From Flavobacteriales bacterium UBA1494 (GTDB lineage Bacteria; Bacteroidota; Bacteroidia; Flavobacteriales_E; Vicingaceae): DNA of 64,000 nucleotides. The notes beneath the pieces were generated by a model. The model saw nothing but the letters and a program-made list of their open reading frames with translations, was not told the DNA's origin and did no database searches. Numbering within the stretch: the stretch's first letter is position 1; every line of letters starts with the position of its first letter. Below, in pieces: positions 62-10,233 of the stretch. The translations under genes were made by a program, and so were the position numbers. Where the stretch lies: positions 1 through 64,000 of the forward strand of contig CAJJAT010000018.1 in assembly GCA_905182175.1 (NCBI GenBank), given 5' to 3'.

Positions 62-190
62 TGCCAACAACGTGTATAGTTAATTGCTTGATAGTGTTTA
101 ATGATTACCAAGGAAATTCTGCCGAATTTCCTCATCGCACTTCCTTTTTGCTATCTTACTACCTAACGCAATTAACCATTCACTGAACCG
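62..190. repeat. Long imperfect hairpin repeat A (attC-like)
   Basis: The outer arms are GTGTATAGTTAATTGC (about 72-87) and GCAATTAACCATTCAC (about 168-183), which pair at 14 of 16 positions. An inner perfect 9-bp stem AGGAAATTC (111-119) and GAATTTCCT (124-132) encloses the loop TGCC. The element begins near AAC and ends in ACCGTT. I recall similar sequences as common interspersed elements between genes of Flavobacteriia; that is memory, not a search. The architecture (long imperfect stem, AAC at one end, GTT at the other) resembles an integron attC site. Confidence 0.6.
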
Positions 191-784
191 TTCGCGTGCA
201 TAGCAAACAACCTAATAATAAGAACTACATTAATATTAGTAGCTCTAGTAATTTTGATTCAATACTTTAAAATGTATTCTCTAATCGCTTGATATAGTAA
301 CATGTCAAAAAAAGAGAATATTGATCTTAAAAAGTTAGCAGACGCGCACCGTAATGAATGCTGAAGGTTTCAAAATTTTGGATTTAATGTTCTACAAAAT
401 TCGAATTTCTCAGCATTTAATCATCTATTTGACTGCTTGCCTGTCTCAAATTTCTAAATTGTTAGACTTCTTACAATACTAGTTGACCAAGCCAATTTTG
501 GTTAGGTAGATTTTGAACAAACAAAATCGCAATATTGAGATTTTCGATTGGCTGCCTAGTTGCAGTATAAATAGATTGAGAACTTGACTCGAGCACTTAA
601 CTGTGAGAACCGGCATACCCCCAAAATACGTGACTATTTTTTAAGTCGCTTTATTAAATAAGTTTTCTAATTCTAACTGCATCTCTAAAAGTATGGTGCA
701 TAATAAAATAGTCTGTATTATTTTGTGTTATACCAACTAATCTAATTCTTTAAACAATCAAATAGCTATTAATTTGAGGTAACT
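191..784. other. Non-coding stretch with two further hairpins
   Basis: No convincing gene is present. A short open frame from ATG near 302 (MSKKENIDLKK...) is soon lost and may be a remnant. Two inverted repeats stand out. AATGCTGA (357-364) pairs with TCAGCATT (410-417) around a self-complementary CAAAATTTTG. AGCCAAT (490-496) pairs with ATTGGCT (547-553) around an inner perfect 7-bp stem GATTTTG (509-515)/CAAAATC (522-528). They look like decayed relatives of the hairpin repeats that flank the neighbouring modules. Confidence 0.5.
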
Positions 785-1792: not shown

Positions 1793-3724
1793 ATGGAAAA
1801 TACAATAGACAACAATAATTTCGAACAAATATTTGACAAATCCACAATAGGGATGGCCTTATGCGAACTTATTGTTGACAATCAGGGTAACCTTTTAGAT
1901 TATCGATTTACTAAGGTTAACCCTGCATTTGAGGAACAATCAGGAATCAAACTCGAGACTGCAATTGGTAAAACAATTAAAGAAATTTTTCCTGACATTG
2001 AACAGTCTTGGATTGAGAAGTTTGGATCCTCTGTAATTAACAACGAACACGTTTCTTTTATAAACTTCAATCATAATACCGGTAGACATTACAATGCTCA
2101 TGCATTTCCCTTATCAGACAACAAATTTACTATGTATTTTGAAGATATAACGGAGAGATTAAAAGCTGAAAGAAAACTCATTAAAAGAAACGAAGAACTG
2201 GTTAAAGCCAAAGAAAAAGCAGAAGAAGGCGAAAAAAGATATAGTGACTTGTTAAATAATCTTGAATCCGCCATTGTTGTTCATGCACCCGATAGTTCTA
2301 TTTTAATGACTAATTCAAAGGCAACAGAGTTACTTGGCTTAAGCGAAGAGCAGATGAAAGGTAAAGAGGCCATCGATCCTGCATGGAAATTCATAGATGA
2401 ATCGAATGTTGCCCTACCTCTTGAAGAGTATCCGGTAAATAGAATAATAAATGAAGAAAAGCCCATCCAAAACCAAGTTATAGGTATCTATCGTCCGAAT
2501 ATGGAAGACATCATATGGGCAACGGTTAATGGCTGTCCTATATTCGATAGCACAGGTGTCATTTCCGAGATAGTTATCAGTTTAATTGACATCACAAAAC
2601 GCAAACAAGCGGAAAATTTATCCATCGAAACCAACCGTCTTAATGCAATTGGTGAAATGGCAGCTTCGGTTGCTCACGACTTCAATAATTCTCTTCAGTT
2701 AATGATCGGGAATTTAGAAATAATCAAAATGCAAAGCGATTTACCTACAACTGCCAATGAACATATTAGTAATATAGAGCCCATAATAAAGGACTTAGCA
2801 TCCAGGACTCGATTATTGCAATCTTTTGGTGATAAAAGAAATAATACCGAGGACCTTGACACTTTAGATTTAAACATAATTGCTGCCGAAACCATATCCC
2901 AGTCTCGCCCGATATGGAAAGATCAGATGGAAAAGAATGGATTAAAAATAAATTTCTTAACCGATTATGGACATATTCCAAAAATACTTTTTAATAAAGG
3001 ATCATTAAGCTCAATTATTTTTAATCTAATTAAAAACAGCATAGAAGCAATGCCTGAAGGAGGAACAATCCAAATCAAAACAGGTATTAAAAACGAGGGC
3101 GTATTCTTAACTTGCAGGGATACAGGGATTGGAATGAGTGAAGAAAGTCAATTGAGAATATTTCAACCATATTATTCAACTAAAGGTTATGAAATAGGAA
3201 GAGGCTTGGGCATGAGCAGTGTTTATAACTTTCTCAAGAAAGCAAAGGGTAGCGTTAAAGTGATAAAAACCGGAATCGGAGAAGGCTCTACCATTCAAAT
3301 ATTTTTCCCAATCAACTCCGTTGAAAAAATCAAATCTATTGACGAAACTGTTCCGAAAAAAGACTCCTCCTTGAGGATTTTATATGTTGATGATGAAGTA
3401 TCAATAGGATTAAATTCCAAAATGTCAATTGAATCGTTTGGCTACGAATGTGATGTAGAGATATCTGCAAAAGATGCCTTAATTACTCTCGAAAAAAAAC
3501 AATACGATGTTGTAATTACAGATATTGGAATGCCGGAAATGAATGGATGGGAATTTGCAACAAATATTAGAGAGAAGTTTGGAGATACAATAAAAATAAT
3601 TGCTGCAAGTGGATGGAAAATTGAAGAAAAAGAATTAATTAAAAATGATATTAATTGTTCATTAATGAAGCCTTACAACTCTGAAGAAATCGAAAAAATA
3701 TTGGGTAAAATACACAAGCTATAA
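1793..3724 (+). CDS. PAS-containing hybrid sensor histidine kinase with C-terminal receiver domain
   Basis: This 643-aa protein has no membrane segments, so it is probably a cytoplasmic sensor. Two PAS domains (about 10-125 and 150-275), the first ending FEDITER and the second SLIDITKRK, are joined by a charged coiled coil (about 125-150). The kinase core has its phospho-acceptor at His295 (VAHDFNNSL), an N box (NLIKNSIEAMPEGG), a G1 box (RDTGIGM) and a G2 box (GRGLGM). A receiver domain starts near residue 520 (ILYVDDE) with the acceptor Asp577 (VITDIGMPEMNGW) and Lys in LMKPY. The HDFNN-type H box with a C-terminal receiver is typical of NtrB-like hybrid kinases. The frame is intact although its neighbours are pseudogenes. 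The stop codon abuts hairpin repeat C. No dedicated output regulator lies beside it, and its ligand is unknown. Confidence 0.9.
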   Translation: MENTIDNNNFEQIFDKSTIGMALCELIVDNQGNLLDYRFTKVNPAFEEQSGIKLETAIGKTIKEIFPDIEQSWIEKFGSSVINNEHVSFINFNHNTGRHYNAHAFPLSDNKFTMYFEDITERLKAERKLIKRNEELVKAKEKAEEGEKRYSDLLNNLESAIVVHAPDSSILMTNSKATELLGLSEEQMKGKEAIDPAWKFIDESNVALPLEEYPVNRIINEEKPIQNQVIGIYRPNMEDIIWATVNGCPIFDSTGVISEIVISLIDITKRKQAENLSIETNRLNAIGEMAASVAHDFNNSLQLMIGNLEIIKMQSDLPTTANEHISNIEPIIKDLASRTRLLQSFGDKRNNTEDLDTLDLNIIAAETISQSRPIWKDQMEKNGLKINFLTDYGHIPKILFNKGSLSSIIFNLIKNSIEAMPEGGTIQIKTGIKNEGVFLTCRDTGIGMSEESQLRIFQPYYSTKGYEIGRGLGMSSVYNFLKKAKGSVKVIKTGIGEGSTIQIFFPINSVEKIKSIDETVPKKDSSLRILYVDDEVSIGLNSKMSIESFGYECDVEISAKDALITLEKKQYDVVITDIGMPEMNGWEFATNIREKFGDTIKIIAASGWKIEEKELIKNDINCSLMKPYNSEEIEKILGKIHKL

Positions 3725-3870
3725 CATCGTGCATAGTAAATAGGGCTATAGTATTAAATTTAAAGTTTATCCCTATTTGAAACTCCGCCAAATTAAAATT
3801 TAGCGAATTGGTAAGAGGAAAACTTATCGATTTCTACTGCCTTACTGGCCACATACTAACCGTTAGCAAT
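3723..3870. repeat. Long imperfect hairpin repeat C (attC-like), ending GTTAGCAAT
   Basis: It starts at the stop codon of the upstream kinase with AACATCGTGCATAG, similar to AACAACGTGTATAG at the start of repeat A. The outer arms GTGCATAGTAAATAGGGC (3729-3746) and GCCTTACTGGCCACATAC (3839-3856) pair only partially. The inner arms CGCCAAATT and AATTTAGCG (about 3786-3804) pair well. The right end reads CTAACCGTTAGCAAT; its last nine bases (3862-3870) are the exact reverse complement of 4319-4327 on the far side of the next gene. Confidence 0.6.
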
Positions 3871-3876
3871 AATTAG

Positions 3877-4318
3877 ATGAAAAAAGTTTTAAGATATTCT
3901 CATATGGTTCTGAGGAAGCAGTAACCTATGAGATAATCTTTCGGTTTGAGGCTTTAGTTTCAAGTGACGAAAAAATTATTGTTGAATTACCAGACATCAA
4001 TTGTCAGAATCGTGCCGAGACTCGTGATGACTGCAAAGCCTTTCAATACTCATTTGGTCAAAATGACCTTAAATGGCTAATTCAAATAAATGATGTTAGC
4101 TATTTTTTAAATCTAAAACGATTTAGCACTATAGATCACTACTTCAAAAACTTGTATCAGCTTGAAGCTTCAAGTAAATTTACAGGCACAAAACTTAAGC
4201 TCAATCATTAGAAGTTGACAGGTGAGCAAGTCAAAGCCCTTTTAGATTCCGGCTTACCTACTGAAGACTGTGAGACATGTGCTTCAATTAGAAACTTTTT
4301 TGCCGCTAAAAAACAACA
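3877..4318 (+). pseudogene. Broken gene of unknown function in a single-gene cassette
   Basis: An ATG at 3877 is followed one base out of register by an open frame from 3879. That frame runs 110 codons to a TAG at 4209-4211 and then continues coding-like in the same frame (KLTGEQVKALLDSG, then EDCETCASIRNFFAAKKQQLL). One frameshift near the start and one nonsense codon therefore interrupt what was probably a 140-150-aa protein. Before the stop it has an acidic N-terminal half with NCQNRAETRDDCKAF. I recognise no family. Complementary 9-bp sequences GTTAGCAAT and ATTGCTAAC bracket the gene exactly, so it looks like mobile cassette cargo. Confidence 0.55.
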
Positions 4319-4345
4319 ATTGCTAACAGCGGTAATCGTTGCACG
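4319..4345. repeat. Cassette-end motif ATTGCTAAC and start of a hairpin element (F)
   Basis: ATTGCTAAC at 4319-4327 is the perfect reverse complement of GTTAGCAAT at 3862-3870. It is followed by AGCGGTAATCGTTGCACG, which resembles the left boundary of the other module-separating elements. The rest of the element appears to have been truncated or invaded by the IS1182-type transposase remnant that starts near 4405. Confidence 0.5.
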
Positions 4346-4404
4346 ACCCTATAATTTAGATAATAACAATTTCAATTAAAACGTTTTAATGAAGGGTTTA
4401 ATTT

Positions 4405-6000
4405 AATTTAAGTCTATTTAGAGTATAATTTTCTAAGCTTAAAGTTGAGTTTATAATCTCTAAAAGCACCCTTTTTACAAGCCGAGCCAAGTCAAGTATC
4501 TTTGCCTTTCTTTTTTGCCATTTTTGAGTAAATTCTAGATATTTATCGAGATTGTATGAAATGTCCGCCATCATCATACAATTGTTTGCTTATTATATTC
4601 TTACCGTATTCACTTTGCGCATGCCCATAAATTGAGTTAGTGCGCCAAACAGAGGCTATACTGTACTTTGTCGCTTCCTTTTCATGTACTTACCCAATTT
4701 ACTCGTTACTCGCTTTGCGTGACATTCTTATTCTACGCGATAAACCGTTACTGCAAATTTCTTTTCGGTAGGGGTTTTGCTTAAACAACTTAATCGCATT
4801 GTGCATGCTTTGCATTGATATCTCGTTCCCCGGTATTCTTTCTTTAGTGTTTCTGATTTAGAGACTTTAAAGACTTTTTTGAAAGGCATCTTCTCTCCAT
4901 TCAGACACAGGTAATAATCTTCTTCTTTATGATCGATAAAACCAACCGAACGTCCCTTATTCGTGCCATGTAGAGCAATATAACTCTCTAAGCCTATTTC
5001 CTCTAAAAAAGCATAATTCTCGCCATTGCCATAACCTGAATCGGCTTCACAATTACGCCATAGCGAGCCTTGCTTATGCAATTGAGGTTTTAAGCGGTTT
5101 ACAATATCCTGCAAATACTGATTGTCCTTCCCATCGGCATGATACGCTCTAATGTCTGTGATTACATGATGCCCCGCACCTACACTCATCTGGCTTAAAT
5201 AATTTAAATTAAATACCTTATAAGATTCTACAATTACTCTAGCTTCAAGGTCTGTGGGCTATAATGTGTTTGTTGCTGGTATACTTCGAGTTCTTCCTTC
5301 TCCCTCCTTGGCGCATGTTTTGGTCTTTTGACCACTTCTAAGTCCTACTTGCTATAGCCTGTAATTCTGCTTTACTTCCGCTATTGCTGCGTTGCTCCTC
5401 ATCATATTTATCTTGCTAAGCCTTACGTTTACGTTCTGAGTATTCTTCTCTATCTTCTGTGCTAATGTGACGGATTTTATGGAGGTGTTCTTCTAAACTC
5501 TCTTCAGGAACTTTCAACTCAAAGGTATCCACGATGTGTTTGCCTTTACAAGGGCATACACATCGCCTGCTTATGAACACTTACCATCCCGTTTTCTACA
5601 CACATCTATAGAACTTCGGTGAACACTTCTTCAAACAACTCTTCAGGAAATAGCTGTCGAGTTCTACTTATCGTTGAATGCCAAGGTAAATAATCATCAA
5701 CGTCATACCCTGAAACGAAAAGAATATCTAAAAGCATACTGCAATGGGTTATCAATTTTCGATCGCTAATTCTGTTCTCCAAATAACCCACCAAACAAAG
5801 CTTAAAAAATACAATTGGGTCGATACACTTTTGTCCGCTTGTTCGATAAAATGTGGCCGTTTGACAATATAAATAGTCCAAGTTTAGTATTCCAAGAAGT
5901 TGACGGTAAAAAGTTTCCTTAGCTACTCGATTACCTAAGGAAAGGGAGCAAATAGCTTCTCTTGGTAATGTTTCGTGCCTTGCATACCTAAAGACAACAT
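4405..6000 (-). mobile_element. Degenerate IS1182-family transposase
   Basis: Read on the minus strand from ATG at 6000, this is a decayed IS1182-type DDE transposase of roughly 500 codons. The N-terminal part (MLSLGMQGTKHYQEKLF) shifts frame near 5930 and continues as LDYLYCQTATFYRTSGQKC, then WHSTISRTRQLFPEELF, to about 5606. The middle (about 5190-5600) has several stops and frameshifts. The 4728-5189 segment keeps TDIRAYHADGKDN, a likely catalytic-Asp region EADSGYGNGENY, and the cysteine-rich RYQCKAC...LSC. A stop at about 4728 is followed by a recognisable C-terminus (VTSKLGKYMKRKRQ, LFGALTQFMGMRKVNT, MMADISYNLDKYL) to about 4405. No intact product is possible. I could not define terminal inverted repeats with confidence. 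Confidence 0.8.
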
Positions 6001-6058
6001 CTTAAGGTATTTATTCCAATCATCTCAACTTCTTTTTATTAAAACTACCTTGTGCAAC

Positions 6059-6185
6059 ACGCACACCGTATATAATTTATTGCCAGTTCTAACCTACTTA
6101 CGAAAATCCTCACGGACTTCTATCTGTGTTTTATTTGCTAAATTTAGTACTTAAACTAAGCAACAGACCATATACTAACACATCA
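6059..6185. repeat. Long imperfect hairpin repeat B (attC-like)
   Basis: The arms GTATATAATTTATTGC (6068-6083) and GCAACAGACCATATAC (6160-6175) pair at 12 of 16 positions. The left part starts near CAACACGCACACC and the right part ends CATATACTAACACATC. It separates the IS1182 remnant from the following kinase. The repeat is open in the kinase frame, which explains an apparent 26-residue N-terminal extension of that kinase that is not real protein. Confidence 0.6.
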
Positions 6186-8782: not shown

Positions 8783-9412
8783 ATGAAAATAGCAATAATT
8801 GGTACTGGAAATGTTGGTACCGCTTTAGGCTCCAATTGGAAAAAATCGAACCACGAAATAATATATGGTTCAAGAAGTCCGCAAGACGAAAAAAATATTG
8901 AACTTGAAAAATTTGCACAAGTATTAACGCTATCTCAGGCTGCTATGCTCGGAGATGTAATTGTTTTGGCGACTCCCTGGCAAAGCACGGAAGAAGCAAT
9001 CAATGAAATGGGTAGCACCCTTGATGCAAAAATAGTGATAGATGCCACAAATCCTTTAAAGCCAGACTTAAGCGGATTACTCCTTTATGGAGATAACAGT
9101 GGTGGTGAGCAAATTGCCAAATGGGCAAGTAAATCTAAAGTAGTAAAAGCACTAAACTCGGCTTTTGCAAAAGTTATGGAGCAGCCTGAAATCAATGGAG
9201 TAAAATCCATGATGCTTATCGCAGGAGATGATCTCTCGGTATTACATACAGTCGCTGAATTGGTAGATGATTTAGGCTTTCAATCGCAAAAAATGAATGG
9301 TATACGCAATAGCCGTTTACTTGAAATGGTTGGATTAACATTAATTACACTTGGATATAAAGAAGGCTTAGGATATGAAATCGGACTCTCAATTTTAAAA
9401 AATAAAAAATGA
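8783..9412 (+). CDS. NADPH-dependent F420-reductase-like NAD(P)-binding protein
   Basis: This 209-aa Rossmann protein has the dinucleotide motif GTGNVGTAL at residues 7-15 and a basic NADP-preferring stretch after the second strand (YGSRSPQ). The length and pattern (VIVLATPWQ, VIDATNPLKPD, VVKALNSAFAKVM) match the COG2085 family of dinucleotide reductases. Bacteroidota are not known to make F420, so the name refers to fold and the true substrate is unknown. The stop overlaps the following broken SDR gene by 4 bp (ATGA), so it was translated as part of an operon. Confidence 0.8.
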   Translation: MKIAIIGTGNVGTALGSNWKKSNHEIIYGSRSPQDEKNIELEKFAQVLTLSQAAMLGDVIVLATPWQSTEEAINEMGSTLDAKIVIDATNPLKPDLSGLLLYGDNSGGEQIAKWASKSKVVKALNSAFAKVMEQPEINGVKSMMLIAGDDLSVLHTVAELVDDLGFQSQKMNGIRNSRLLEMVGLTLITLGYKEGLGYEIGLSILKNKK

Positions 9413-10233
9413 ATAAATAAGTAATATTAATCACAGGAACGAGTCGAGGAATCGGTAAAGCTACCGCTGAATATTTAAAAACCAAAGGATACATTGTTTA
9501 TGGCTCATCGAGAGGAACAGCCAACATGAGCATTAATCAATTGCAACTTGAAGTTACAGATTTTGAATCGTGCAAAAGTGCGGTGGAAGAAATTGTAAAG
9601 AAAGAAGGTCGATTGGATGTTCTTATCAATAATGCTGCCTACGAATTAGTGGGTGCTCATGAAGAATATACAGTGGAAGAAATTCGTGATCAGGTTGAAG
9701 TGAATTTCTTTGGTGCATTGCACATGATGAAAGCTGTTACACCGCAAATGCTAAAGCAAAAATCTGGGAATATTATCAATATCTCTTCTATTGGTTCTGA
9801 TTTTGGTTGGACGTTCAATGGCGCATATAGTGCTGGGAAATTTGCAATGCATGGCTATTCGGAAGCAATTAGATGAGAATTTTTGCCTTTGGGAATCAAT
9901 GTTTCCTTGATTTCTCCTGCGGGAGTAGCAAGTGGAACTACCAATATATCCGTTCAACACTCAAAAAATAGGCATCCTATTTTTGAAAAAGCAAGCAATG
10001 CAGCATTTGAAGCTTCTCATGGTAGAGGTGATTTAAAAATGGCAAGTAGCATGGAAACTGTTGCAAAGACCATAGAAAAAGTCATTGAATCTAAACAACC
10101 AAAGTTCATTTATCGTGTAGGTTTTATACCGAGATTGATGCAGTTCATGAACACGATCCTTTCTCAAAAACGATTTGAAAAGTTTTATATGAAGGCACTT
10201 AAAGCACCTACAAAGGCACCAAGTAATTATTAA
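9409..10233 (+). pseudogene. Short-chain dehydrogenase/reductase with two in-frame stops
   Basis: From ATG at 9409 one single frame of 274 codons runs to 10233 with no frameshift but two nonsense codons: TAA at 9418-9420 (codon 4, after MNK) and TGA at 9874-9876. Otherwise it is a complete classical SDR. It has the nucleotide motif TGTSRGIG, NNAA, the catalytic region IINISSIG with YSAGK (Tyr and Lys present), and LISPAGVASGT. The upstream gene ends 1 bp into the start. The frame is preserved apart from point nonsense changes, so the inactivation is recent, or reflects sequence error. Substrate unknown. Confidence 0.8.

Follow-up and report, generated by a model that had tools for sequence, protein, structure and literature searches.

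The complementary sequence pair at 3862-4327 of the stretch analysed here (the window, 64,000 nucleotides long) very probably delimits a degraded cassette of an integron-type array, belonging to a system that is widespread in Bacteroidota and that appears to rely on a recombinase other than IntI. Integrons are a main route of gene capture, and the Bacteroidia were thought to have almost none. Surveys with standard models at first yielded only In0 elements in Bacteroidetes; IntegronFinder 2.0 later added a single complete integron, that of Salinibacter ruber (PMC9024848). If the present reading is true, a large bacterial group holds an overlooked reservoir of cassettes that was missed by both IntI-based and attC-based surveys. 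The evidence is comparative throughout: what the sequences display is a recombinase, a repeat resembling attI, cassettes chained by their complementary ends, a covarying stem, a bottom-strand bias and a cassette shared between genera. A search of the open full-text literature found no description of this system, though one may exist elsewhere.

The feature, here called cassette A, begins with GTTAGCAAT at 3862-3870 on the forward strand and closes with the exact reverse complement, ATTGCTAAC, at 4319-4327, and the complementarity extends over these 9 bp and no further. It encloses one orphan gene whose ATG is off-frame relative to the main reading frame (3879-4208); no homologue was found among 60 related genomes and no Pfam family was matched. 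The initial annotation had reported just such a broken gene of unknown kind between exactly complementary 9-bp ends, and both points stand. It had also taken the left flank to be the attC of the preceding cassette, and this flank (3724-3864) does match the family HMM over its full length (nhmmer E 2.6e-10, model positions 2-187), a model whose training set comprised only elements of relatives and a single further one from this genome. Taken singly, the end pair is only mildly unusual and is weak evidence. The 9-mer occurs three times in 64 kb against 0.9 expected, and at least three times in 7% of shuffles; the opening 8 kb of the window contains six GTT/AAC 9-mer pairs, and a complement lies 100-1000 bp downstream of 0.75% of the background GTT 9-mers in this genome (14 of 1875). 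The pair gains significance because the attC-like flank that fits the above HMM from end to end has exactly this GTT as its 3′ terminus, and because the same arrangement recurs in homologous arrays. Cassette A is placed exactly between attC-like site 2 and the next AAC, and we read it as a degraded gene cassette of an integron-type array.

The window starts at the first base of its contig (C18), and its first 6.2 kb, with three attC-like sites in one orientation, reads as a decayed cassette array at the contig edge (Table 1). Site 1 was recovered by covariance model (CM) R1, with the bottom strand, over model positions 1-66 (E 3.5e-7) and by a DNA HMM over model positions 1-124 (E 5e-7), and positions 1-65 ahead of it are the tail of a truncated cassette. 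The kinase gene that follows encodes PAS, HATPase_c and Response_reg domains (Pfam). Its 5′ cassette end is unrecognisable, with no GTTATAGC upstream within the array, and its stop codon is overlapped by the R′′ motif TATAAC of site 2. Fragments of a subtilase (Peptidase_S8) gene, spread across frames, lie at 1070-1672 between site 1 and the kinase gene. To the right of cassette A, a short stretch is probably the scar of an attC, in which the 5′ end of one site would be joined to a 3′ end (AATCGTT) with the middle lost; the attC of relatives show the same AACAGCGG starts and ..CTAATCGTT ends. Probable cassette B contains a decayed insertion sequence with a short inverted repeat (4442/6024), whose ORFs at 4728-5189 and 5606-5881 gave the Pfam matches DDE_Tnp_1 (below cut-off) and DUF772. 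Site 3 is matched by CM R1 (E 7e-5) and by the DNA HMM (model positions 2-121, E 9e-16). Decay is visible in the broken gene, the insertion sequence, the scar and the kinase gene without a partner end. An Rfam search of the window returned a tRNA only, and an inverted pair at 3709-3742/61537-61570 was rejected as a coding coincidence.

Table 1. Features of the window array, with the loci of the shared cassette and of the candidate accessory gene; "probable" marks assignments inferred from the sequence.
Feature	Position	Strand	Remarks
attC-like site 1	66-192	+	5′ AAC 66-68, 3′ GTT 190-192
Sensor histidine kinase/response regulator gene	1793-3724	+	643 aa; between attC-like sites 1 and 2
attC-like site 2	3723-3864	+	Left flank of cassette A, taken as hairpin repeat C of the initial annotation; 3′ end CTAACC followed by GTT
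Cassette A	3862-4327	+	GTTAGCAAT start, ATTGCTAAC end; one broken orphan gene inside
Broken orphan gene of cassette A	3879-4325	+	Frame lost after ATG 3877; in-frame TAG near 4210
Probable attC scar	4325-4340	+	AAC-AGCGGTAATC-GTT
Probable cassette B	4338-6058	+	GTTGCAC (4338-4344) to GTGCAAC (6052-6058), 7-bp complementary
Decayed insertion sequence in cassette B	4430-6045	-	Borders approximate
attC-like site 3	6063-6181	+	Right end of recognisable array
Shared cassette	L075, reverse complement of 9160-10107; L262, 1511-2460		
Zinc-finger-like gene	L092, L096-L102, L104, L106, L107, L126-L131, L138, L148, L219-L221		Upstream of recombinase

The array in the window does not stand alone in this genome, as sites of the attC family occur on contigs C6, C14, C18 (the window), C22 and C40. 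Perfect 10-bp cassettes are found at attI-like flanks, two on C22 and one on C14. Single cassettes at attI-like flanks, with no recombinase adjoining, lie at 3002-3497 of locus L282 (C14) and at 3818-4456 and 4850-5135 of locus L283 (C22), and these flanks are possibly secondary attI sites. The tyrosine recombinase of the genome, a 377-aa protein (G000:C44:17718-18845), is followed by its stop codon, an attI-like region and GTTGTAGGG; the contig ends 110 bp past the stop, just inside the first cassette, a break consistent with an assembly interrupted by repeated sites. This recombinase lies on another contig than the window array, and we infer that it built the array. Because attC subtypes differ in sequence, searching the whole genome with a single element, or with its end motif, gave few matches, and the family had to be traced with an HMM and a CM. 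The suggestion in the initial annotation of an integron-like system at work in this genome is borne out by these attC-family sites on five contigs and by the recombinase with its attI-like region. No intI-type integrase, the enzyme proposed there, was found, and the work is more likely done by a tyrosine recombinase of another kind.

The system is found intact in relatives, which also place the present genome in Bacteroidota. One C14 element of the present genome has related copies in 15 of 60 genomes and 10 of 39 genera, some of them in tandem, with the better copies 80-89% identical. In genome G024, one strand of a contig (its own C14, locus L075) carries a 382-aa tyrosine recombinase, an inverted repeat with 14-bp arms and about a dozen cassettes, the first bounded by GTTGGCGTG..CACGCCAAC, the next by GTTAGGGCAA..TTGCCCTAAC, and so on. 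The layout of a recombinase followed by cassettes is repeated in Winogradskyella, Seonamhaeicola, Algibacter, Rufibacter and other loci, and chains of 5-9 cassettes are found in Algibacter, Seonamhaeicola, Winogradskyella and Flavobacteriaceae S0862, the longest consisting of nine co-oriented cassettes (L147). The GTTN6/N6AAC ends of the chained cassettes in relatives are perfectly complementary. Raw counts of GTT/AAC 9-mer pairs, the kind of frequency on which the initial annotation was to be judged, were only modestly raised, and chains were therefore counted instead. With a link defined as complementary GTT/AAC pairs 40-260 nt apart, the sequence downstream of recombinases gave 84 chained links, whereas 20 shuffles gave 3-23 and the upstream sequence, although more of it was scanned, gave 11. 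Strict links, for which 10-bp ends and the observed attC lengths were required (criteria set after the lengths were seen), numbered 18 downstream against 0 upstream, with 0-1 in 30 shuffles. In 14 of 21 loci a GTT located no more than 200 nt past the recombinase pairs with a downstream complement, compared with 6.9% for swapped loci; the first-cassette pair is absent in the other 7.

It is extremely improbable that the hairpins are instead MITE-like or REP-like repeats put behind genes by a transposase, with complementary ends arising by coincidence. That elements of the TATATAGC subtype are intergenic and 81-96% identical across genera would suit such repeats, as would the mildly unusual pair of cassette A, but the complementary arms differ from one cassette to the next, flank the gene on both sides and are chained, and the arrays begin directly behind one recombinase family. 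Elements of different sequence moreover have a common fold and common end bases, and the strict-link counts already largely refute the repeat explanation.

Read as part of an integron-type array, the attC-like site is an imperfect hairpin in which structure rather than sequence is conserved. Its body is mostly 53-55, about 115-122 or about 180-184 nt long. Comparison of the arms in 30 sites yields a stem of 15 pairs, 12 of which show double compensatory changes. The outer and inner stems are separated by spacers of unequal length, typically 3 versus 6 nt. In the outer arms AAC/GTT alone is conserved (e.g., GCTAAC/GTTAGC and GCACAAC/GTTGTGC), and the canonical R boxes RYYYAAC/GTTRRRY are not kept, in agreement with the earlier remark that the window pair breaks the strict GTTRRRY rule and may be a divergent site. 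Folding favours the bottom strand over the top in 32 of 32 attC (mean -27.7 versus -24.0 kcal/mol), which are mutually related sequences and do not amount to 32 independent events. Single elements of the window fold no better than shuffles, and the left-flank hairpin, which had been put forward for folding as a single strand, gave no hairpin signal (z -0.25); the hairpin is revealed by covariation across the family. The poor folding of single window elements can be attributed to decay of the sites and to outer arms that would pair only in the excised form.

A cassette common to genomes G024 and G019, of two genera (88% identity), has its left homology border at GTT, preceded by a short TTAGCTAG match; this border lends indirect support to recombinase-dependent movement of cassettes. 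The cassette lies mid-array in one genome, and in G019 directly behind an attI-like inverted repeat. The two copies have the same outer ends and the homology stops just after AAC, with different attC bodies, which simple cassette transfer does not explain. Cargo genes, which resemble those of sedentary integrons, encode HigBA toxin-antitoxin, a NERD nuclease, cation efflux, a serine hydrolase and proteins of unknown function. HigBA toxin-antitoxin cargo is typical of sedentary integrons.

Mechanistically, each cassette would comprise one gene (sometimes two) and an attC-like site. In the excised circle, GTTN6 from the cassette start and N6AAC from its end could pair with each other and so close a folded single strand with an outer stem. 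The recombinase would then recognise the folded bottom strand of attC and cut between the G and the TT of GTT; joining of the cut attC to attI, or of attC to attC, would insert or excise whole cassettes. Both the position of the cut and the use of attC as a single strand are predictions from sequence, as is the role of the neighbouring recombinase as the enzyme that does the work.

These recombinases are proteins of about 380 aa made up of an N-terminal domain of about 70 aa, a SAM-like core-binding domain and a catalytic domain, the Pfam matches being Phage_integrase and a SAM-like domain. The best NCBIfam model is XerA (NF040815), and by both profile and fold the closest solved relatives of the catalytic part are XerA/archaeal Xer (5hxy, 4a8e). 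It is unlikely that they are true IntI proteins that diverged and lost the IntI insertion, making this an integron class of the ordinary lineage. In the tree, the new recombinases and IntI do fall in a larger group apart from Xer (98/63), and IntI4 (2a3v) is among the top matches of a PDB profile search. Within that tree, however, a long branch of length 1.43 sets IntI off as a clade by itself (100/100), the new recombinases form their own group (92/82), and Xer stands apart; L134, probably a wrong ORF on a very long branch, was ignored. The IntI model TIGR02249 scores them at 188-214 bits, under its cut-off of 265, in matches that skip model positions of about 180-238, and the insertion specific to the IntI catalytic domain is absent from them. 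The motifs GLRxxE and HxLRH are spaced 91-96 apart in 30 of the proteins versus 133 in IntI of L206, the sole IntI in which both motifs could be read. The N-terminal domain is different as well.

A further alternative is that cassettes are moved by host XerC/XerD, or by canonical IntI acting in trans, and that the recombinase next door has nothing to do with the array. This is very improbable. No IntI scored above the TIGR02249 cut-off in any of the 60 relatives, and among 396 Bacteroidota genomes 105 have one, a single genome of these being in the class of the present genome; recombinases like that on C44 (E<=1e-80) are found in 111 of the 396, 53 of them in the same class with the present genome counted. 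Arrays without an adjacent recombinase do exist (the window, C22, C40) and Xer-type and IntI models give the recombinases similar scores, yet the recombinase gene adjoins the array start in locus after locus, and the flavobacterial subclade keeps an inverted repeat between the stop codon and the first GTT. In that subclade the attI-like site consists of a 7-14-bp inverted repeat with GTT a few bases later; the repeat is weaker or missing in some other subclades.

The first 70 or so residues of the recombinase are confidently predicted to form a domain (mean pLDDT 87) with a beta-beta-alpha-beta-beta-alpha arrangement. This is weakly matched to XPB (2fwr; probability 0.97, E 0.03) and to the HARP domain of SMARCAL1 (4o66; probability 0.44), and one homologue matches Pfam HARP at a non-significant E of 0.07; the likeness to HARP/XPB damage-recognition domains is below significance, short of family membership, and amounts to a suggestion that the domain may bind structured DNA. 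Directly upstream of 22 recombinases, that of the present genome included, and divergent from them lies a gene for a treble-clef/zinc-finger-like protein of about 125 aa, nearly always in the flavobacterial subclade. It has a weak DUF2116 match and no curated family, and its product is a candidate accessory factor. Bacteroidetes SOS motifs (PMC8565304) were not enriched upstream of 44 recombinase genes; among integrons, SOS control of the integrase is frequent without being obligatory. We give even chances to the broader proposal that the Bacteroidia possess a second kind of integron, in which folded-hairpin cassettes are captured by a recombinase of separate origin from IntI and an N-terminal HARP/DRD-type domain, together with the zinc protein in flavobacteria, would replace the IntI insertion in hairpin recognition. 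The IntI insertion has been described as essential for integron function (PMC8138268); if the integron-type reading of the arrays is true, a natural enzyme without the insertion offers a direct test of this claimed need in the recombination of hairpin cassettes.

The system shares with IntI integrons, both the mobile class 1-3 and the sedentary chromosomal ones, a tyrosine recombinase with an adjacent attI-like site, co-oriented and mostly single-gene cassettes, complementary ends around GTT/AAC, a hairpin attC with the stronger fold on the bottom strand, and cargo of toxin-antitoxin and unknown genes. It differs from them in a recombinase that lacks the IntI insertion and has the extra N-terminal domain, in outer arms that break RYYYAAC/GTTRRRY, in the conspicuous inverted repeat of the attI-like site, and in a recombinase gene co-oriented with the cassettes, whereas the integrase gene of class 1 integrons is divergent from them. 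The window array resembles CALIN (attC clusters without an integrase) in having attC-like sites and cassettes with no recombinase alongside, but its attC sites are of the Bacteroidota family. The extra N-terminal domain and the location at a cassette array likewise set the recombinase apart from XerA and archaeal Xer. Similar recombinases are also seen in records labelled as Spirochaetota, Firmicutes or archaeal MAGs (L157, L160, L161, L168).
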